A stretch of DNA of 64,000 nucleotides from Endomicrobium sp. Lineage in GTDB: Bacteria > Elusimicrobiota > Endomicrobiia > Endomicrobiales > Endomicrobiaceae. Below, one piece after another: positions 25,767-47,297 of the stretch. A program made the translations under genes and the position numbers. The number at the start of each line of letters is the position of its first letter. Position 1 is the first letter of the stretch. The notes beneath the pieces were generated by a model. That model saw nothing but the letters and a program-made list of their open reading frames with translations. It was not told where the DNA came from and ran no database searches. The stretch covers positions 1 to 64,000 of the forward strand of contig JAISLA010000015.1 of the NCBI GenBank assembly GCA_031260705.1. The letters are read 5' to 3'.

Positions 25767-26979
25767 GTACAATGCTTTATCGTCTGCGGTAATTTATGGT
25801 CCAAATGCCGCCGGCAAGACAAATATAATTGAAGCAATGGAGGATTTTAAAAGAATAATATTATCTGCCAATATATTAAATAATCCTGTATTGCAGGCTA
25901 CAAGCAGGCATGGCGGAAGCCTTGAGTTTATTCCAAACGTTATATCTGCAGATGACTTGCCGACAGATTTTAGCATTGAATTTATTTCAGAAGATAGAGA
26001 AAATAAAAAAAACTATGTTTTTAAATATAATTTATCTGTTCAATTGGGAAAATTTGCAAAACCAGATTATCAAAGGAAGATACTTCTCGAAGAATTGTTT
26101 ATCGGGGGGAAAGAAATATTTACAAGGAAAGAGAATAAAATAGAATTGAATTTTAATAAATTAAAACGATTCCTTCCCTATAGCTTTAAAAAAACTGAAT
26201 CTAAAAATATAATGAAAAGGTTAAACGAGAATTTAGTGCAGACTGATTTATTTTTAACTTCGGGTTTTAAAAATATCTGTAGCAGTCAGTTAGTTGAAAT
26301 TTTTAAGAATTGGTTTTTAAACAATTTTAAAATTATTTGCAACGCAAATAAGGTTGAAGTTTTTCCGCCCGTGTCAGTCTTAAAAGAAGCAAAAGATAGA
26401 AAGTTTGTTAAAAATTCAGTTTTAGATAAGATTTTAAAAAAACTTGGAATTGTTTCTGATGTAGGTTATGGCTTTAATAAGTTTAAGAATTATTGTGAGC
26501 TTGCATCTCTAATAAAAAATGATAATAATTCAACGAATGTAATAGTGCCGTCTAGAATTTTTGAATCATTGGGAACTTTAAGATTATCTAGTCTGATTAT
26601 AATATTGTATAATGCTATTAAGTCGGGGCTGACTATTGTTATGGATGAATTTGATGCTTCAATTCATCCTATGATAATAATGAATATTATAAATCTTTTT
26701 CACAATGATGAGATTAATAAAAATCATGCGCAGCTGATATTCAGCACGCACAATCCGATTTTTTTAAAAAGTTCATTATTTAGAAGAGATGAAATCAAAT
26801 TTGTTGACAAAGAGGAAAATTCAAATACAAGCATTTTATATGCACTGTCTGATTTCGGTACAAATAGCAGAAAACCTGTGAGGAAAACTACAGATTATAT
26901 GAAGAATTATTTCATTAATCGCTATGGAGCTGTAAGAGATGTTAATTTATCCGACGTGTTCAAGGAATATTATAGATAG
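25741..26979 (+). pseudogene. RloA-like AAA ATPase, 5'-truncated
   Basis: The frame is open from about 25650, but the protein-like part begins near 25741 with no ATG before 25837. Codons before that ATG encode the Walker A motif GPNAAGKT (25798-25821). Walker B (TIVMDEFDASIHP) and the FSTHNPIFL histidine loop follow in frame. Starting at 25837 would lose Walker A, and the first 40 or so residues usual for AAA15-type ATPases are absent. It precedes an rloB-like gene by six bases. The rest of the frame is intact. Confidence 0.65.
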
Positions 26980-35231: not shown

Positions 35232-36782
35232 TTGTGTAAAGAGAATAATTTGGAAAAAATAAAAAAATCTGAAGGAGTGAATGAAAGTGAAAGGATGCTG
35301 GTTAAATTAGGCAAAAAAGTCTTTCTGGAATTATGGAGTTATCCAAATGTGTATTATGAGCCAGGAAAAGAATTAACTGATTTATTAGTTATCTGTGATA
35401 ACTATATTTTAATATTCTCAGATAAAAAAGTAAAATTTGACGACTCTAAAGATTTGAAACTTGCTTGGCAAAGATGGCATAACAGAGCAATCATAAAATC
35501 TATAAAACAATTAAGAAAGGCAGAGCATAGAATTAAAACTTTTCCGAATAATCTCTTTTTAGATTCCAAGTGCAAACAAAAACTGCCTATTTCGCTTCCA
35601 TCTCTTAATGATATGGAAATTCATTTAATTTGTATTGCTAATGGGGCAAAAGATGCTTGTAAGAAGTATTTTGGAGAAGGATGTACAGGCAGTCTGAGAT
35701 TTTCAACAGATCTTTCTGAATTGAAAGATTTACATTTACCAACAGAATTTTGCGTTACTGATGATAAAACACAAACATTCGTTCATATATTTGATGACTT
35801 CTCTTTTCCTTTTATTTTGAATGAGTTAGATACATTAACGGATTTCGTAAACTATCTTGAAGAAAAAGAAGTATTTATCAGAAAAGCCAAAGGAGTATCA
35901 TATACTGGAGAAGAAGATTTATTATATAATTATGTCAAAAATTTAGACAATAAAAGAAATCGGCATACCTTTATCTCTGAAGATAAAAAAATAGAAGATA
36001 CTTTCTTTTACTTTCCTGAGGGAAATTGGAACAATTTAAAGGAAAATCCTCAATACAAAGCCCGAAAGCAAGCTGATGAAATTAGTTACTTATGGGATGA
36101 TTTAATACAAAAAACCGGATTAAATAAATTAAACGGAACTATAATTTCAGAGAAACCTGCAGGGAGTACTCATGAAGGCGCACTTAGATATATGGCTTTA
36201 GAGAATAGGGTATTAAGGAGAGATTTGGCCTTAAAAATGAAACAGGCATTTGATTCGTATCCGAGTCACTTATCATGTGAATCAAGTTTTTCATACGTGA
36301 GATATAAAGAAACTTCTTTCCGTCCGTATGCAAGTCTTTCATACGTGTGTCAAAAATCTGAACAAGCTTATTTCTTTTTACAATTAAAACCATTAGTCTC
36401 TGAATCATATAACGATTACAGGCATAGGCGCAAAGGATTACTTGAAATTTATGCAATCTGTTTAAAAGCAAAATTTGTTTGTGAATTACCTGAACGTCCA
36501 TTGAAAAGAATAATCGGTATTGGTATGGAACCGCCAAAATACTCAGATACGATATCAGAACAGTTTTTATTATTAGATTGTTCTGAGTGGACTGACGAAC
36601 AGCAAGCAGAATATAGCAATTGGAGAAGCCGTCTGAATATTTGGAGAACCCCGCTAAAGCAAGCTAATAAAGTTCACATTAAGGAATATCCTGAAATACA
36701 AAAACGAAAGAAAATAGGCAGAAATGATCCTTGCCCTTGCGGGAGCGGTAAAAAATATAAAAAGTGTTGTTTAAATATTTAA
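35232..36782 (+). CDS. SEC-C motif protein, possible nuclease-like N-terminus
   Basis: The 516-residue protein ends with a SEC-C zinc motif, [18 protein letters not shown], which in SecA and others binds zinc and nucleic-acid partners. The N-terminal part has [21 protein letters not shown] and then [11 protein letters not shown]. This spacing of Glu, Asp and DxK loosely resembles a PD-(D/E)XK nuclease, but the assignment is an inference. The start is uncertain: a TTG is used here, and ATG at 35295 is an alternative. It lies between trpA and a type III R-M locus. Confidence 0.6.
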
Positions 36783-36855: not shown

Positions 36856-39315
36856 ATGCAAAATATTAATGAAACTAAATTTTATCAGGCGTTAGAAAAT
36901 ATTTTTACAGGAGCGAAAATAGATGGGGGTGGGGGGGGGTATGTAAACCTCTTAAAAATAAAATATTCTTATTATAAACTTATTCTTAAGCAGTTTAAAG
37001 AAGATTTAGATGCAGAAAGCGGTATTATTAAAGACTCGTTTAAAGAAGAGTTTTTTGACAAACTGTATTCTTTTTTTGAAAAATATTTTTCTGAGAGTGG
37101 AAGTGTCTATTTTGTAAAAACGGCTGATTGGCAAAGAGTATATGAGCAGGTCTACACGGACAATAAAGACGTAATCTTGTTTTGGAAAACTCATATGCTT
37201 TACTATGTAAAAAGTGATATTCTATTCCATGATATTTCAACTGAAATACCGGACGAACAAGATGGACGGGTTTATAACTTTTATTTTGACGTCGGAACTC
37301 TTAAAAACAAACAAAATAACGAAAAGAAAAATCTGTTTTTTGACTTTTTTAAAGAAGAACCATCAGAAAAAGACGGTAAAAAAACCTATATTTTTAATGT
37401 TAATTACTCTGAAGGCGGCAAAAAGACAAAGACTTCAGAAATAAGCAGAAAGCTTAAAATTAAAGAAGATATTTTAGAAAAAGCTTTTGCCGTATTTAAA
37501 AAACAATCAGAGGTAGATTTTTTTATAAATAAAAACGCCAATGCGTTTTTGAATGAGCAGTTAGATTTATACTTACATCAAATATTATTAAATACAGAAA
37601 ATAAATTTGACCAAGAAAGGCTTGATCAGTTAAAAACAATCAAAGTATTTGCTGAGAAAATTATCAGTTTTATAGCGCAGTTCGAGGACGAACTTGTCCG
37701 AATTTGGAATAAGCCTAAATTTGTATTAAACAGCAGTTATGTTATAACGTTTGATAAGCTAACGGATGAAATAATAAACAAATTATCAAAACATTCAAAC
37801 CTAAAAGAGCAGATAAAAGAATGGCAGGAATTGGGAATGGCAGATAACAATTTTAATTTTTCCGAAAGATCAGAAGCGCATAAATATTTACCGGTAGATA
37901 CAAAATATTTCAAAAATTTAGAATTAGATATTTTAGCCTTATTTGATAATTTAGACGAAGCATTGGACGGCAGGTTAATACACAGCGAGAACTATCAGGC
38001 TCTTAATACTTTGCAGGAAAAATACAAAGAAAAAATACAGTGTATTTATATCGACCCGCCTTTTAATTTAGATAAAAATGCGAGTTTTGATTATAAGGTG
38101 AATTATAAAGACGCTACATGGGCTACTATACTTGAAAATAGATTGAAAATAGCAAAAAATTTCCTAAAAGATACCGGAAGCATATTTGTTAGAAGTGATT
38201 ATAATGGGAACTTCATTGTTAGATGTTTGCTCGATAATGTTTTTGGGAAAGAGAATTTTAGGAATGAATTTATAGTTAATACTACGCAAAAATTTTTTGA
38301 AGGTTCCCAAAGATACAACATAGGAACAAACTCTCTTTTTTGGTACTCAAAGCAAGAAAAAGATTTTTGTTTCAAAATACAAACAAAAAAAAGAGCAGAA
38401 AAGAAATGGATGGAAGCACACTCAGGAGGCGAAAGAAGACCACCTGAAAGAATAATTTTAGGTGAAAAAGTATATCCTCCAAAAGGTAGACATTGGACAT
38501 TTATACAAGAAAAAATAAATGTAATGGAAAAAGAAGGAAGGATACGGTGGAAAGAAAAAGAATATATAGATTATAATGGAGAAAAACAATATAAAATTGC
38601 TGAATATCTATTTGCGGATGAAAAATTTTTAAATTCAAATTGGACAGATATATCAGGTTATTCTTCAACAACAGGATTCCAAACAGAGAATTCAGAGCTT
38701 CTACTGCAAAGAGGCGAACTAACTGCCTCCTCAAAAAATGATATCGTTTTAGATTTTTTCATGGGAAGTGCGACTACTCAAGTAGTTGCTCAAAAACTTA
38801 GCAGAAAATGGCTTGGCATTGAAATGAGTGAACAATTTTTTAAAGTGAATATTCCAAGATTAAAAAGAGTAATATCTGGAATACAGCAGGGAATTTCAAA
38901 AGAACTAAAAGAAAAATATAATGGAAGTGGTTTCTTTAAGTATTATTCTTTAGAACAATACGAAAATACTTTAAGTAAGATAAGAGATAAGTATTCAAAG
39001 AATACTCCGTCTACTCTATGGGATAACAAAAATCCATTTGAAACTTATATTTTTAAAGCAGACGAAAAATTTGCCGATGTATTAAGCATAGAAAGCGAAA
39101 TCTTGGAAGTTGATTTTGACAAATTATACAAAGACATAGATTTTGCAGAAACAATATCTAACCTTAAGGGATTATCTATAGAGAGAATAACTAAGACAGG
39201 CGTATTATTAGACGGTGAAAGCAAAGAGATAAGAACTGATTATAAAAATATGACGAATTCTGAAAAGCTTGAATTCATAAGACTGTTAAAACCTTTGCTT
39301 TGGTGGGGCGAATAA
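36856..39315 (+). CDS. mod: Type III restriction-modification methyltransferase, Mod subunit
   Basis: This 819-residue protein is an N6-adenine methyltransferase of the beta class. The catalytic motif DPPF lies at residues 400-403, and the SAM-binding motif LDFFMGSATT near residue 633. TGFQTENSE precedes motif I as in type III Mod proteins, and the variable centre would be the target-recognition region. A GGGGGTGGGGGGGGG tract at 36925-36939 encodes a Gly run near residue 26 and could switch the gene on and off by slippage; the frame is open here. An rloC-like gene and res follow. Confidence 0.9.
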   Translation: MQNINETKFYQALENIFTGAKIDGGGGGYVNLLKIKYSYYKLILKQFKEDLDAESGIIKDSFKEEFFDKLYSFFEKYFSESGSVYFVKTADWQRVYEQVYTDNKDVILFWKTHMLYYVKSDILFHDISTEIPDEQDGRVYNFYFDVGTLKNKQNNEKKNLFFDFFKEEPSEKDGKKTYIFNVNYSEGGKKTKTSEISRKLKIKEDILEKAFAVFKKQSEVDFFINKNANAFLNEQLDLYLHQILLNTENKFDQERLDQLKTIKVFAEKIISFIAQFEDELVRIWNKPKFVLNSSYVITFDKLTDEIINKLSKHSNLKEQIKEWQELGMADNNFNFSERSEAHKYLPVDTKYFKNLELDILALFDNLDEALDGRLIHSENYQALNTLQEKYKEKIQCIYIDPPFNLDKNASFDYKVNYKDATWATILENRLKIAKNFLKDTGSIFVRSDYNGNFIVRCLLDNVFGKENFRNEFIVNTTQKFFEGSQRYNIGTNSLFWYSKQEKDFCFKIQTKKRAEKKWMEAHSGGERRPPERIILGEKVYPPKGRHWTFIQEKINVMEKEGRIRWKEKEYIDYNGEKQYKIAEYLFADEKFLNSNWTDISGYSSTTGFQTENSELLLQRGELTASSKNDIVLDFFMGSATTQVVAQKLSRKWLGIEMSEQFFKVNIPRLKRVISGIQQGISKELKEKYNGSGFFKYYSLEQYENTLSKIRDKYSKNTPSTLWDNKNPFETYIFKADEKFADVLSIESEILEVDFDKLYKDIDFAETISNLKGLSIERITKTGVLLDGESKEIRTDYKNMTNSEKLEFIRLLKPLLWWGE
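36925..36939 (+). repeat. G5-T-G9 tract inside mod
   Basis: A run of nine guanines (36931-36939) directly follows GGGGGT within codons about 24-28 of mod. Gain or loss of one or two bases would shift the frame and stop translation early. Simple repeats of this kind drive phase variation of type III mod genes in other bacteria. Confidence 0.85.
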
Positions 39316-39340
39316 CAAATATAGAATATCTAAAAAAACA

Positions 39341-41528
39341 ATGATTACTAAAATAAATAAGATAAAAGATTTCGGGGTTTTTAAAAACTTCAAAAATAGC
39401 GGAACAATTCCAGAATTTAAGAAATTCAATCTTATTTATGGCTGGAATTATTCAGGCAAAACTATGCTTTCAAGAGTGTTCAGGTGTTTAGAAAAAGGCG
39501 AAATACGACAATAATTTTTCATTACCAAAACCCAATATCCGCGTTTTCAATTCTGATTTCATAAAAGAAAATCTAAAATGGGATACGGATACAGAAAATA
39601 TTGAACCTATATTTATATTAGGCGAAGAAAACATTAGACTGCAAACAGAGTTAAAAGAAAAAGAAGAAGCATTAATAAAAGCTAAAGAGGGATTCGAAGA
39701 ACTTCAACAAAAACAGAAAGACATAGATAAAACAGCTACAGATAAAGCAAGAGAAATTACAAACACACTAAGTTTAGGAAGAGATTTTAACAAAAATGAT
39801 TTGAAACAAATTATTGAAAAAGTAAAAAAGAATATTTCAGAATATATTTTATCAAAAGCTGATTTTGATAGATATAGAACACAAGCGCTGTCAACGGAAC
39901 AAAAACCACCTATTGAGAAAATAACATTTAATATTAAAGATCTGGAAATACTAAAAGAAAAAGCTGAGGAAAAATTACACCGGCAGGCAGCTTCTAATAA
40001 AATTGAGAAATTACTTAAAAACCCGAAAATCAGCAGTTGGGTGGAAACAGGCAAAAGTCTGCATAAGGGTAAAACAGATTGTGAATTTTGCGGAAACAAG
40101 CTGCCAATAGATCTGCTGCCTAAATTAAATGAGCACTTTTCTGAAAATTATGAGTTGTTAAAAAAAGCTATTGCAGCCCTATTGGAAGAATTAAATACCT
40201 CTAAAATAAATTTAAATTTGTTGCTGGCGGAAACTGCTTTTTATAAAGATATTCAGTCAGATTTTAAACAAGCCAAACCTATTCTTGAAAAAGAAATTCG
40301 TAATTTTAACGATGCTGTAAGTTCATTAATTAACGATTTGGAAACAAAGCAGAAAAAACCTTTTGATAAATTAGAAGTTACTCAGTTTGTAAATAACGCA
40401 AAAGAATTAGAAAAAGCTTTAGCAGGCTTTAACGCTGTCATAAGCAAAAATAATGATAGAACAGTTAATTTTGAGAGAGAGAAAAACGCCGCAGTTGAAA
40501 AATTAAAAGAACATTTTGCAGCAGAGTTTGAAAAGAATGAAAAGTATTCTGAAAGGCAGACGCAGTTAGAAAATGAACAAACAAATATTAAGAAAGATAT
40601 AGAAATGCAAAAACAAGAAATCGACAAAATAAAAGCACAATTAGATGAAAGCGTTAAAGGCGCTGAAAAAGTAAATGAATACTTAAAAATATTTTTTGAA
40701 AAAGACGATATTAAGATTATAGCAACAGATGATAAAAAATTTAAGATGGTTCGCGGAACAGAAGCAGCAAAGAATTTAAGCGAAGGGGAGAAAACAGCAA
40801 TTTCATTTGCCTATTTTGTAGCAAAGCTTGGAGAACAAAATAACACTATAGCTGATACAATAATTTATATTGACGACCCGGTCTCAAGTTTGGATTCAAA
40901 TCACTTGTTCAATATTTATTCTTTTATAAAAGATATATTTTATGAGCGCAAAGATCTGCAAAGCAATAAATATACTTGCAAATGCAGGCAGTTATTTATT
41001 TCAACTCATAATATTGAATTTTATAATTTAGTTTGCGATTGGTCTGAAAAGCAAAGTTATTTAATTAAAAGAATAAAAAATTCGCATAATGATGAATCTA
41101 TATTAACTAAAAGCGATGATTTGATTAAGGAATATAAGTCTGAATATGTTTATTTATTCTCATTGATAAATGAATTTTATAACAAGTCAGAAGACACTTT
41201 TGAACATCTATATTATTTACCTAATATCTTAAGGAGATTTGTTGAGACATATTTGAGTTTTAAATATTTGTCCGGAAGTATTACTAATAGTATTCATTAT
41301 TTGATTCCTGACTCAGTTAAATGTGAAAGAGCAAAAAAATTTATGCATTATTACAGTCATAGTTTAACGACCAATAACTTAATAGGATTCCCGGATTTAG
41401 CTGAATGTGCTGCTGTCGTTAATATTATAATAGATGCCGTGCAACAAAACGACCGGACGCACTATAATTCATTAGTCGAAGCAGTAAAAAAATTCACAAT
41501 TAAAAATACAACCAGAGAAAAAAAATAA
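39341..41528 (+). pseudogene. RloC-like anticodon nuclease with one frameshift
   Basis: An ATG at 39341 opens an ABC ATPase N-terminus with Walker A GWNYSGKT, but a stop follows at about 39512. The +1 frame, open from 39492, continues with NNFSLPKPNIRVFNSDFI to 41528; the phase appears to break at or near the A5 run at 39492. The second frame holds a coiled coil with a CEFC pair (40080-40091) like the RloC zinc hook, the LSEGEK signature, IIYIDDPVSSLD Walker B and STHN. At its C-terminus R-x3-E (41232-41246) and a YYSH histidine resemble the PrrC/RloC tRNase triad. Its stop overlaps res. Confidence 0.72.
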
Positions 41529-44302
41529 TGAAAATCATTCTTGAAAAGATTTTAGAACAAATAGATTATGAGCAATTAAACAATTGGCAGCTTCCTAATA
41601 TCTCTTGCTTTTCTGAAAATAAGAATTTAGACGAGTTTCCATATCAAAAAGAAGCGCTTAAAAATATAACAAAAACGCTTTATTTATCTTTTAAAAATTT
41701 TCAAAACGGCGATACAAGCCCCGATAAACAAACTCTCCATAAAAAATATAAAGAATACGGACTTGAAGAGAAAGCTTTTGCTGTATGTAAATTTACAAAC
41801 AATAAAGATAAAAGCATAGGCAATGCAAGCAGCAGATTTAAGTTTTTTCAAAATTATTCAAAAGATTATAAAGTTTTAGGAGAAGGAACTGAAGAATATG
41901 TTGCAGATGCCGCTTTTTTAAACAGGGCTTGTTTTTGGATGGCGACAGGTTCGGGAAAAAGTATTGTTTTGATAAAAACTATTGAACTTTTAGATCATTT
42001 ACAGAAACAAAACCTTATCCCAAGAAAAGAAATAATGCTGCTGCTTCCAAGAGAAGACTTGATAAAGCAGTTTAAAGTAGAAATAGAAGGATTCAACAAA
42101 AGCAGAGAAAGAAAAATTGAACTTATAAATCTTATAAACTATGAGGATGATAAACAAGGTTTTAATTACGACTATTCCATAAAGGTTTATTATTATAGAA
42201 GCGATTTGCTAAGAGATGAACGCAAAGAAAGTATTTTAGACTACAAAAATTACGATAACAAAGGAAACTGGTATATATTTCTAGACGAAGCGCATCGCGG
42301 CGAAAAAGAAAATTCCTCAATGCAGAATTATGTTTCTGTTTTATCAAGAAACGGATTTTTATTTAATTTCTCTGCAACTTTTACAGAGAATATAGATTAC
42401 TTAACCACTTGTTTTAATTTTAATCTTGAAAAATTTATCTCAGAAGGATACGGAAAAAATTTATATTTAAGTTGTACTTATTTTAATTTTGCAGACGAAA
42501 AAAACGAATTAAGCGAAATAGAAAAGCAGAAAGAAGTCTTAAAATCTTTACTCGCTTTTACTTTAATCAAGAAATCAAAAAAACAAGAATATTATCACAA
42601 TCCTCTGCTTATAACTCTGGTAAATTCAATAAATACAGACGACTCTGACTTACTTTTATTTTTTAAGAAGATAGAAGAGATAGCAGCCGGCAGTATCACA
42701 TCTCAAATTTTTGATAATGCAAAAAACGAGTTTGGACAAGAACTATTAAACAATAAAAAATATATATTGGGACGAGAAGAACTTTCTTTTGATATAAAGT
42801 TGTTTGACAAAATTATTCTTAAAGATTTGTTAGAAAATATTTTTAATACTAAGAAGCACGGTAAAATTGAGCTTTTAGAAGGCGAAAAGGAAAAAGAAAT
42901 AATATTAAAATTAGAAACAACAGATAAACCGTTTGCGCTCATTAAAATAGGCGATGCTAGAAAGTTTCAAAGGGAAAAACTGGGCGGTAATTATCAATAT
43001 ATAATTTCTCCTGAAAAAAAGACTATATTTCAAGGGATAAATGAAAATGAGGATATAAATCTTTTGCTCGGAAGTCGTAGTTTTTATGAAGGCTGGGATA
43101 GTAATAGACCGAATGTGATAAATATGATAAATATCGGCGGAAAAGAGGCTAAAAAGTTTGTTTTACAAAGTATAGGACGAGGCGTTAGAATAGAGCCTGT
43201 AACAGGCAGAAGAAAGAGATTATACGCAAATGATACAAATAAAAATATACTTTTAGAAACGCTTTTTATTTTTGCAACCGATAAGAATTCTATAGCCAGT
43301 ATTGTTGAGACAATTAAAGAACAGAAAACAAAAGGCGAAGAGTTAAAAGGTATTTTTAAAAATACATCCCCTTTTGAATTATATATTCCCGAATATAAGG
43401 AAGAAGCGCCAAGAAATAATTTTACAAAGTTTAATCTTTCAAAGAAAACATTAGAAAACATAAGAAAATATATTAAAGATTTCAATAAAAACCTTTTATT
43501 GTTAAAGCACGATATATCTTTAGAAAATCTCAATCTTTTACTTGAGAAAATTGACGACGATAATTCTTTTCAGGTAAAAGAGGATAATGACTATTATAAT
43601 ATGGATTTTTTGTTTAACAGATTGATTTCTCATACTGCTGTAAAAAATAAAATATTTTCTAGACCTAAAGAACTTGAGGACGAAATAATACATTTTAAGC
43701 ATATAAAAATATCTAATCTAGGAACTGAAGATATTAAGTTGTTAAACTCAGAAATTGAAAATGTAAAAACAGGCAAAAAGAATGAGGCTGAATTTAAAGA
43801 ATTAAAAATAAAAAATATAGCGAAACATTATTATCTGCCGTTAATTTATTCAAGAACAGAGAAAATAGATTATATAAACCATATAATAGTAAATGAGAGC
43901 GAAGTGAAATTTATTCAGGATCTTGAAAAATATATAAATCGAGAAAATATATCATCAGAATGGATGTTTAGCAAAATAGACGAAACTTTGGACGAAGAAA
44001 TTGGAATACCGTATTTTTACAGAAAAGATAACAGATACAGAAAATTTTTTCCTGATTTCATCTTTTGGATTAAAAAAGGAAATGATTACAAAATTATATT
44101 CATAGATCCTAAAGGAACAAGCCATACCGATTATGAGAACAAAGTTGATGATTTTGAAAAACTGCTCCTCAATCTCAATATTCCCTATAAAGGACTAAAT
44201 ATTAAATTTGATTTAAGATTTTATAGTGATGATATCAGTCCCATAGGGGAAAAATATAAGAAACATTGGTATCCTTATGGAGATTTTTCTTTTCTGAAGT
44301 AA
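41528..44302 (+). CDS. res: Type III restriction enzyme, Res subunit
   Basis: Res is the ATP-dependent translocating endonuclease subunit that works with Mod. The 924-residue protein has Walker A ATGSGKS near residue 140, the DEAH box (FLDEAHRG), FSATFTEN, a C-terminal helicase half with GRGVRIEP, and an end domain with PDFIFWI and FIDPKG, which fits the PD-(D/E)XK nuclease. Its ATG overlaps the stop of the rloC-like gene. The frame is intact. Confidence 0.9.
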   Translation: MKIILEKILEQIDYEQLNNWQLPNISCFSENKNLDEFPYQKEALKNITKTLYLSFKNFQNGDTSPDKQTLHKKYKEYGLEEKAFAVCKFTNNKDKSIGNASSRFKFFQNYSKDYKVLGEGTEEYVADAAFLNRACFWMATGSGKSIVLIKTIELLDHLQKQNLIPRKEIMLLLPREDLIKQFKVEIEGFNKSRERKIELINLINYEDDKQGFNYDYSIKVYYYRSDLLRDERKESILDYKNYDNKGNWYIFLDEAHRGEKENSSMQNYVSVLSRNGFLFNFSATFTENIDYLTTCFNFNLEKFISEGYGKNLYLSCTYFNFADEKNELSEIEKQKEVLKSLLAFTLIKKSKKQEYYHNPLLITLVNSINTDDSDLLLFFKKIEEIAAGSITSQIFDNAKNEFGQELLNNKKYILGREELSFDIKLFDKIILKDLLENIFNTKKHGKIELLEGEKEKEIILKLETTDKPFALIKIGDARKFQREKLGGNYQYIISPEKKTIFQGINENEDINLLLGSRSFYEGWDSNRPNVINMINIGGKEAKKFVLQSIGRGVRIEPVTGRRKRLYANDTNKNILLETLFIFATDKNSIASIVETIKEQKTKGEELKGIFKNTSPFELYIPEYKEEAPRNNFTKFNLSKKTLENIRKYIKDFNKNLLLLKHDISLENLNLLLEKIDDDNSFQVKEDNDYYNMDFLFNRLISHTAVKNKIFSRPKELEDEIIHFKHIKISNLGTEDIKLLNSEIENVKTGKKNEAEFKELKIKNIAKHYYLPLIYSRTEKIDYINHIIVNESEVKFIQDLEKYINRENISSEWMFSKIDETLDEEIGIPYFYRKDNRYRKFFPDFIFWIKKGNDYKIIFIDPKGTSHTDYENKVDDFEKLLLNLNIPYKGLNIKFDLRFYSDDISPIGEKYKKHWYPYGDFSFLK

Positions 44303-44831
44303 AACCTTTTTAGGAGCAGACGATAAGATTCTTTGATCAGCGAAGCTCGCAATAATTTCACTGGAGAAAGCAAACATCAAAAATAAGCAAAATATATACG
44401 CATATTATGGTTACTTGTAAGAGTTTAAACAATAAAGTCCTGCTCTCTCATAAGAATTTAAAAATCAAATTTAACCGGTATTAAATAGAAATATTCTTTG
44501 TGTATGATTTAGAATGCGGGATGGCAGGCGTAAGTGAATTACTATATCTTGCGTAAACTAAAGTTGATAGGGGAAAGATAGTGGTTTTGAGACTATAATA
44601 TACCGCCGCGTTGTTTTGCCATTTCTAAGCTTTTCGTAAATATAAGTAAAATTAAAAAACTGAGATTGTTTGTAACATTGAGAAATTTCTCATAAGCAGC
44701 GGGACAAATTTTTCTCCCGGCAGAATAATTTTTTCTGATATTATCTCTGCAACAGAAAGGCACATTTTTATAATTTGTCGCAGGAATGCGATTAAACAAA
44801 GAGTAACGCATAAAGCCGTAAATCTGATATT
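44303..44831. other. 529-bp spacer between convergent res and a radical SAM gene
   Basis: No gene with family resemblance is seen. A 72-codon minus-strand frame at 44593-44811 was considered and left out. No clear terminator was found in this convergent spacer. Confidence 0.5.
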
Positions 44832-47297
44832 TTACGGTTCATATATTTTTCCGCTTTTTGTTTCAATATATAAATTAGTTCTTTCAACAGCATATATTTC
44901 TCCGTATTTATCTTGACTTCCCATCAGTTTTTTTAAAACTGTTTCAGGTCTTACGGATTTGCCGCTGCTAAAACGAAGCTGTAATTTCAAAATGCCGTTT
45001 TCATTTTTTAAAGATTTTATTAAAGGTTTAACGTCAATCTCAACGGTTTTTCCTTTTTTCATTTTCTCCACTATAATTAAGTCTTGAGATAAAAGCTTAT
45101 CAATTTTTTCCTGAGCGATATTTGTATTTTTTATTTTGTACTCTGAAATGTTTGACAGAATGCTTATAGACGGAAAATTTAAAGGTACTTTTTTTACGTC
45201 GAGTAATCTAAATCCATCTGGCAGCGCTTTTGAAAATTCCAGTTTAACATTTTCAATATTCACTTTCTGCGTAAAATATAATTCCATATATTCGCTTGAA
45301 CTTTCTTGACCTACAGAAAGCGGCGGTCCGTAAGATGATTTAACTTGAGGACTGAAACCTGAAGTAAATGCTACGGGAAGTCCGGAACGTCTTGCGGTTC
45401 TGCGGAATACTTCAACCTGTTCTAAATGAGACACGAATCTGACCGCGCCTTTTTTTGAAAAACGAAGTCTTAAGCATACAACAGGCGCAGCTGCTAAAAT
45501 TTTAATCTCCGCATAATTTTCAGGCAGAATATACTGCGCTTCATAAGGTTGTACCGCCGCAATGTCGCCCGTTTCATTTATGCCTTTGATGTATTCTTTA
45601 TACAGCGCTTTTTTTGACACGCCGAAATTCAGATGCTCCCACGGCAGAGTTTCGTCATATTTTATATTTCTGTATACATAAAAATTTAAATCAATTCTGC
45701 TTTCAGCGAGAGCCTCATCCCATATATCGCTGACAAACTTGTCAGCCCACTGGTCAAACCTCGCACCTTTCCGCCACGCTTTATAAATTACAGATGAAAG
45801 CCGTCTGTCGCCTTTTGCAATTAAAGCCTCTAAAATACTTGCTCTGCGGTTATGCGTTTTTATATTTGCTGGAAGCAGTTTATTTAAAATATCAATTTTT
45901 CGTTTTATTTCGTTCTCGTCTGCCATCGGCGTCCATTGAAAGGCCGTCTGGGCTTTCGGGACAAAAGGCGAAACAGTAATATTAAAATTTAAATCTTTTG
46001 CTTTTTTTCTGACAAGTTTTACAAGACGTTCTATACCCGCTATATCTTCATCGGTTTCCGTAGGGAGACCTATCATAAAATAAAGTTTTATGACTTTCCA
46101 TCCCATAGCGCTTGCGGTAAGCAGAGTTTCAACTATTTGTTTTTCAGAAAGATATTTACCTATTACATTACGCATTCTCTCCGTGCCTGCTTCAGGCGCA
46201 AAGGTGAGCGTAGGTTTTTTGCTTGTGTTGACATAACGTGCTGCTTTAAGAGAATGTTTGTTGCATCTTAAAGACGGCAGCGAAATGCTGAGATTCGATT
46301 TGCCGTACAAATTGTTTGTTTCAATTAATAACTCGTCTAAATTTTTGTAATCGCTGCACGAAAGAGACGAAAAAGAAATTTCTTCAAAACCTGTAGATTG
46401 TACACCCTTTTTTACGAGATCAAGCAGTTTTTCAAGCGATCTCTGCCTCCAGGGACGGTAATATTTTGACGCTTGACAGAAACGGCATTGTCCGGGACAT
46501 CCTCTTGCCACTTCAATGTTCAATCTGTCATGCACAGTCTTTACAAAAGGGATTATTTTTTTTTCCGGGAAATACGCATTTTCAAGGTTTAAAATTCTTT
46601 TTTTAACAACCGGTTTTATATCTTCTGATACGGGAATTACAGATTTTACAGTATTATCGTCATTATATTTGACATTATAAAACGACGGCACATATACGCC
46701 GTCTATTTTTGACAAATTTTTTACAGTTTCTAATCTTGAAAGCCGGGCTTTCTTGGATTCTTTACATACGTTTATTATATCTTCTATCACTTCTTCGCCA
46801 TCGCCTAAAACAAACATATCAAAAAAATCGCAGAAGGGTTCGGGATTAGTCAGAGCGGGTCCGCCGGCGATTATCAGTGGTTCGTCGTCTTTTCTGTCTT
46901 TTGAAAATATGGAAATGTCCGATAAGTCAAGAATATTGACAATGTTTGTCGCAACAAGTTCGCACTGAATTGTAAAGCCCAGAATATCAAAACTTTTTAA
47001 ATCGCTGCCGGATTCCAACGAGAAAAGACTAAGTTTTTTTTCTTTTAAAAGCAGTTCCAGATCGATGTCCGGAGCAAACACTCTCTCGCAGCGGGCAAGC
47101 TTTTTTTCATTAATTAAATGGTAAAGAATTTCAATCCCGAGATTAGAAGCGCCGACTTCGTAAATATCAGGAAAACATAAGACTACCGAAAAATCCATAG
47201 ACATATCGGCGGGATGCGAATTTAACTCGCTGTTTATATATCTTGCGGGTTTTTTCACAATATTTAATATTTCGTTAATTTTGGACAGTTTTTTCAT
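44832..47297 (-). CDS. B12-binding-like radical SAM protein fused to DUF2344
   Basis: The 821-residue protein has an N-terminal Rossmann region (FPDIYEVGASNLGIEILYHLI, blocks), then a radical SAM domain with the CxxxCxxC cluster motif GCPGQCRFCQ near residues 264-271. A C-terminal DUF2344 domain begins near RLRFSKKGAVRFVSHLEQVEVFRR. Such fusions are widespread in bacteria, and their reaction was not known to me. It is intact and alone; no partner gene is adjacent. Confidence 0.85.
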   Translation of the reverse strand: MKKLSKINEILNIVKKPARYINSELNSHPADMSMDFSVVLCFPDIYEVGASNLGIEILYHLINEKKLARCERVFAPDIDLELLLKEKKLSLFSLESGSDLKSFDILGFTIQCELVATNIVNILDLSDISIFSKDRKDDEPLIIAGGPALTNPEPFCDFFDMFVLGDGEEVIEDIINVCKESKKARLSRLETVKNLSKIDGVYVPSFYNVKYNDDNTVKSVIPVSEDIKPVVKKRILNLENAYFPEKKIIPFVKTVHDRLNIEVARGCPGQCRFCQASKYYRPWRQRSLEKLLDLVKKGVQSTGFEEISFSSLSCSDYKNLDELLIETNNLYGKSNLSISLPSLRCNKHSLKAARYVNTSKKPTLTFAPEAGTERMRNVIGKYLSEKQIVETLLTASAMGWKVIKLYFMIGLPTETDEDIAGIERLVKLVRKKAKDLNFNITVSPFVPKAQTAFQWTPMADENEIKRKIDILNKLLPANIKTHNRRASILEALIAKGDRRLSSVIYKAWRKGARFDQWADKFVSDIWDEALAESRIDLNFYVYRNIKYDETLPWEHLNFGVSKKALYKEYIKGINETGDIAAVQPYEAQYILPENYAEIKILAAAPVVCLRLRFSKKGAVRFVSHLEQVEVFRRTARRSGLPVAFTSGFSPQVKSSYGPPLSVGQESSSEYMELYFTQKVNIENVKLEFSKALPDGFRLLDVKKVPLNFPSISILSNISEYKIKNTNIAQEKIDKLLSQDLIIVEKMKKGKTVEIDVKPLIKSLKNENGILKLQLRFSSGKSVRPETVLKKLMGSQDKYGEIYAVERTNLYIETKSGKIYEP

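Follow-up and report, generated by a model that had tools for sequence, protein, structure and literature searches.

An RloC-type anticodon nuclease gene, probably inactivated recently, within a type III restriction-modification operon of an Endomicrobiellum symbiont

We analysed a window of 64,000 nucleotides (the whole stretch of DNA considered here, on contig C4) from the draft MAG of an uncultured symbiont (990 kb, 17 contigs, 81 % complete), most closely related, among named organisms, to Ca. Endomicrobiellum agilis TA26, hereafter agilis, which is hosted by the termite-gut flagellate Trichonympha agilis (PMC8809381). The gene order within the window is trpF-trpB-trpA, one SEC-C ORF, a type III DNA methyltransferase gene (mod), an rloC gene lying in two frames and the gene for a type III restriction subunit (res), with mod, rloC, res and all their features given below on the forward strand. 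mod (36856-39315) is open over 819 aa, with a Pfam N6_N4_Mtase match at 2.6e-32 and a match to the PADLOC MTase_III profile at 3.5e-238 covering positions 3-792 of 816. res (41528-44302) is open over 924 aa, with a ResIII helicase match at 1.5e-16 and a PD...DPK nuclease motif (PDFIFWIKK...IIFIDPKG) at its C-terminus. A beta-class N6/N4 methylase in mod, and a ResIII helicase together with a C-terminal nuclease in res, identify the pair as type III restriction-modification (R-M) genes, and the nesting of an RloC-like gene between the two, proposed in an earlier note on this DNA, is borne out by Pfam and PADLOC for these type III partners. The stop codon of rloC overlaps the start codon of res in the sequence TAATG (41526-41530), as read directly from the DNA. 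The SEC-C ORF (35232-36782) sits between trpA and mod, encodes 516 aa from a TTG start with the SEC-C motif at its C-terminus, and is unmatched at this locus in agilis and in G065, a nearer relative of the source genome. An AAA_21 ORF of 380 aa (25837-26979), encoding an AbiEii-like ATPase, lies amid cell-shape and division genes of the window.

The 5′ fragment of rloC (39341-39514) comprises 57 codons and a stop, its translation ending in EIRQ, matches AAA_13 at 1.7e-13 and contains the Walker A motif GWNYSGKT (39440-39463), which is conserved in alignments of relatives. The 3′ part (39492-41528, open to 41525) matches AAA_13 at 2.1e-115 and is without Walker A in its frame; with 678 open codons at E = 2e-115 the match is far from chance level. 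The two frames overlap at 39492-39514 and are collinear in Pfam, covering AAA_13 positions 2-45 and then 60-691 of 713. Both also match consecutive parts of PADLOC PDC-S06, which aligns with the intact ortholog over its full length at 4e-162. Joined, they correspond to intact orthologs that are 748-769 aa long, and the 3′ part shares 74-77 % identity with the unbroken ortholog of agilis. Within the 3′ part we identified the CxxC zinc-hook motif CEFC (40080-40091), the ABC signature LSEGE (40776-40790) and Walker B IDDP (40869-40880), both located from the alignment of relatives, and the switch histidine region STHN (41001-41012), a motif named in PMC2610378. These are followed by the Arg and Glu of the ACNase triad in RRFVE (R-x3-E, 41232-41246) and by its His in YYSHS (41349-41363; SH 41355-41360, His 41358-41360).

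RloC has been defined as an ABC ATPase with a CxxC-bearing coiled-coil insert and the residues R-x3-E-x36-52-(S)H, in proteins of 658-897 aa (PMC2610378). Conservation of these features was read from a 31-row alignment of relatives, made up of the agilis protein and the full-length hits of two scans, one over phage contigs and the other over genomes. Both hook cysteines, the triad Arg and His and the core ABC residues are invariant over the 31 relatives, while the triad Glu and the Ser preceding the His are each present in more than 90 % of them. The triad reads R-x3-E-x37-SH in the window copy and has x38 in agilis, both within the RloC range and in its SH form. All of the RloC ABC motifs (Walker A, signature, Walker B and switch His) were found, distributed over two frames here and contained in one in agilis, so that the ABC ATPase and the C-terminal R-x3-E...H arrangement noted earlier were both recovered, the former with an AAA_13 match. 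At 748 aa the intact ortholog falls within the RloC lengths, as does the window copy, which is however split. The CxxC-bearing insert, the triad with its spacing and the length range are shared with RloC of the Geobacillus kaustophilus and Acinetobacter baylyi types. Searching both frames against profiles, as had been proposed, returned AAA_13, PDC-S06 and a PrrC profile reaching into the C-terminal part (1.6e-12 for the window copy, 4e-16 for a second copy in the same genome). AAA_13 and PDC-S06, the best profile matches, are broad sequence families whose names state no tested function, and the call of an RloC-type protein is supported by the CxxC and the R/E/H triad. The likeness to PrrC of EcoprrI extends to the same triad, the same ABC motifs and nesting within an R-M operon. 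PrrC is however about half the size (341-416 aa versus about 750 aa), has no coiled-coil insert and no zinc hook, spaces Glu and His by x31 (PMC2610378) compared with x37 here, and belongs to type Ic hsd loci, whereas the window gene is in a type III operon. With the rloC product as query, NCBIfam gave a sub-threshold SMC-related match and nothing else, and a phmmer search of the PDB yielded no match at E up to 0.01.

An AlphaFold2 model of the agilis protein (mean pLDDT 85.5, pTM 0.56) has a long helical, coiled-coil insert at residues 110-469. The CxxC is placed in the turn between helices 245-257 and 275-304, a putative zinc hook in the position that the earlier note had supposed for the CEFC pair. 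In the same model the triad Arg and Glu lie one turn apart on a helix, with the His directly after a later helix. The C-terminal domain modelled in isolation is all-helical (pLDDT 83), and Foldseek of this domain against the PDB gave no match, HEPN or other, with E < 1 (none below 5). Of two profile searches against the PDB, one (A7) returned designed or unrelated chains only and no nuclease, and the other (A5) returned AriA, RecF and similar proteins over the N-terminal ATPase, together with coiled-coil proteins, again with no nuclease. The C-terminal nuclease of RloC has been assigned to HEPN (PMC3710099), and that membership rests on the literature and is not claimed from this analysis. Foldseek of the whole agilis model retrieved Rad50 and SMC heads (7zr1 at 1.2e-7) as well as LmuB. 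The LmuB fold matches, the unmatched C-terminal domain and weak profile matches (LmuB, and AriA in the case of the second copy) could point to some other SMC/Rad50-like defence ATPase (LmuB, AriA or OLD-like) with no anticodon nuclease. Such an identity appears very unlikely given that the PrrC profile extends into the C-terminal part of both copies and that R, E and SH are conserved at RloC spacing in the 31 relatives; LmuB and AriA are not known to have such a C-terminal domain.

The earlier note had placed one frameshift at an A-run within 39480-39520. The frame break and its position stand, but not the cause. A three-way DNA alignment with agilis and G065 ruled out a one-base slip in the A-run, and comparison of the A-run between sisters uncovered instead a private deletion of 53 bp, which are kept in agilis and in G065 and are missing from the window copy alone. 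The junction (39499-39504) lies on GAAA at 39500-39503, the gap falling between ...AAAAAGGC and GAAATACGAC. As GAAA is present at both ends of the 53 bp in G065, slippage or a microhomology deletion is the likely origin of the loss. Seventeen codons are gone shortly after Walker A and, 53 not being a multiple of three, the frame is shifted into a stop at 39512-39514, interrupting the frame that a functional RloC requires. With mod and res open and rloC split, the description of intact R-M genes around an out-of-frame tRNase holds at this locus.

Long collinear frames overlapping at 39492-39514 might also reflect programmed frameshifting or re-initiation, by which a functional protein would still be made from both. 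This is scarcely credible: no start codon occurs in the second frame before a TTG at 39801, already past Walker A; intact relatives do without any shift; and the 17 codons kept in those relatives are deleted here. A further alternative is an assembly or amplification artefact, in which rloC would be intact in the population and the 53-bp gap would represent a chimera or a minor variant. The source is a draft MAG of an uncultured symbiont, a whole-genome-amplification chimera is able to mimic a short microhomology deletion, and the remaining 2 kb of the gene are open and reject neutrality (see below), so are without other marks of decay. A 53-bp gap is however unlike a one-base homopolymer slip, and an end repeat of 4 bp is not long enough to mislead an assembler. 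Elsewhere in the window ten long genes, including mreB, ftsW, gatB and a uvrD-type helicase, are open over their full length, which counts against poor assembly, and frame breaks are often seen in the same operons of sister genomes. We consider an artefact unlikely.

The age of the break was approached through substitutions in the second rloC frame, where 61 nonsynonymous and 28 synonymous changes were assigned to the window lineage (w about 0.51), compared with w of 0.42-0.53 in intact rloC copies. The 61:28 ratio is lower than neutrality would predict (p = 0.003) and fits w = 0.45, about the value of the intact copies (p = 0.35), although with such small counts the test is coarse and relaxed selection used as a clock provides a bound only. 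Since the broken frame still rejects neutrality, rloC appears to have been constrained over most of the window branch and to have been broken recently.

Our preferred explanation, to which we assign a probability of roughly 0.84, is that of a recently inactivated rloC amid the type III mod-rloC-res operon of an Endomicrobiellum endosymbiont of termite-gut flagellates, as one of several independent component losses. Judging from characterised RloC proteins, an intact product would be a Rad50-like ABC ATPase whose coiled coil bears a zinc hook and whose C-terminal part is an anticodon nuclease. By analogy the protein's ATPase and hook would themselves keep it silent until DNA ends arising at phage attack or DNA damage switched it on, and the activated enzyme would cut tRNA and so stop translation. 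Following the deletion at the GAAA microhomology, the window locus would be predicted to yield only a stub of 57 residues, from which an active nuclease is not expected, while the open mod and res probably still perform plain restriction-modification. The setting would be one of decaying, horizontally exchanged defence operons.

That the tRNase was switched off and restriction kept, as the earlier note had proposed, agrees with this operon but not with the genome as a whole or with its sisters. A family search identified a second AAA_13 gene in the same genome, flanked by type III mod and res genes that are both open (G000:C16:67224-74147; L175:9225-16148). In this second mod-rloC-res operon mod (637 aa), rloC (772 aa) and res (889 aa) are all open, and every motif is present in rloC, including CQFC and R-x3-E-x38-SH. 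Because the operon is fully open the cell would still have RloC-type defence, and the loss at the window locus is not a cell-wide change from suicide to restriction. A third type III mod/res pair in the same genome is without rloC. Adjoining this third pair is an SMC-like ATPase of 509 aa with a CPLC motif (G000:C1, L196 5431-6960).

The sister genomes display other combinations of open and broken components. In the first operon of agilis, mod and rloC are open and res is frameshifted at about aa 820, which puts its nuclease motif in another frame (L006 11056-13808), whereas in G065 all three genes of this operon are broken, by frame breaks of its own. In the second operon, G065 has an open rloC (778 aa) next to a mod broken into two pieces and a res broken into three, while in agilis mod and res are adjacent, 2 bp apart, and rloC is absent, so that rloC would be an optional insert between the two. 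Selective disarming, in which the tRNase is dropped as toxic or useless and restriction is retained under selection, is compatible with the window operon, where mod and res are open but rloC is not. We regard it as quite unlikely in view of the intact rloC in the second operon of the same genome, the opposite retention of rloC beside a broken res in agilis or a broken mod and res in G065, and the breakage of all three genes in the first operon of G065, a pattern of undirected component-wise decay. Retention of rloC next to such damaged R-M genes indicates that the parts of these operons decay independently and in no set direction. Degraded R-M loci in Ca. Endomicrobium trichonymphae, from the same lineage, show the same defence-gene decay and R-M mobility. 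Zheng in 2016 and Izawa in 2016 are said to have described R-M mobility and decay in these endosymbionts. In a further genome (G006:C9, L070 60-5274), a res homolog (57-59 %) is preceded by genes for a predicted SMC-like ATPase and an AlbA_2-like protein with no rloC, and no match was found when the stretch around this res was read for mod.

Divergence between the window genome and agilis was compared for the first-operon segment (38932-44427) and the neighbouring radical-SAM gene (44832-47297). Values of dS are 0.26-0.29 in the second rloC frame and res of the first operon, against 0.65 in the radical-SAM gene; the second operon gives 0.60-0.63, and the first 54 rloC codons taken by themselves give 0.66, on few sites. 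The middle of mod, at about 38180-38931, is without a DNA match in agilis, with both sides 86-87 % identical. The low dS of the first operon, combined with the unmatched central mod, makes it seem that the operon passed between the lineages after their split with its recognition region swapped. Among 93 loci around relatives (on phage contigs, plasmids and genomes) only a handful have type III mod or res nearby, making R-M embedding the exception. Of 72 RloCs surveyed in the literature, only 8 were at a type I or III locus (PMC2610378, PMC3874168), and the window copy is both type III-embedded and broken. Strong RloC-type matches are patchy within the class Endomicrobia, a distribution that fits lateral spread of RloC-type genes.

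The host R-M system keeps PrrC silent, and a cell losing that system might be expected to release the toxin. RloC is regarded as having a switch of its own; for the RloC of Acinetobacter, mutants of unlinked R-M changed nothing (PMC3874168). The two cases of an intact rloC beside dead R-M suggest, in agreement with the Acinetobacter protein, self-control of an RloC nuclease that is silent without need of host R-M, with the reservation that sister assemblies may contain errors. We tentatively propose, at somewhat short of even odds, that the mod/res junction is an optional slot, occupied by rloC, by an SMC-like ATPase with an AlbA_2-like protein or by nothing, and that rloC within it is unchecked by the host R-M. 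If this were true the genus would constitute a natural knock-out series for the control of R-M-embedded RloC. The natural Endomicrobiellum combinations are both intact, RloC only broken, R-M only broken, all broken and slot empty, and the two cases of dead R-M with intact RloC support self-control for embedded RloC too. The window locus matters mainly as one state in this operon series; the rloC observation is real and correctly named and is otherwise mostly ordinary. Independent decay of such parts has already been treated in the literature on these endosymbionts. Two agilis contigs (G025:C17 and C23) hold pieces of other AAA_13 genes, some of them interrupted by stops, which suggest additional decayed copies in that genome.
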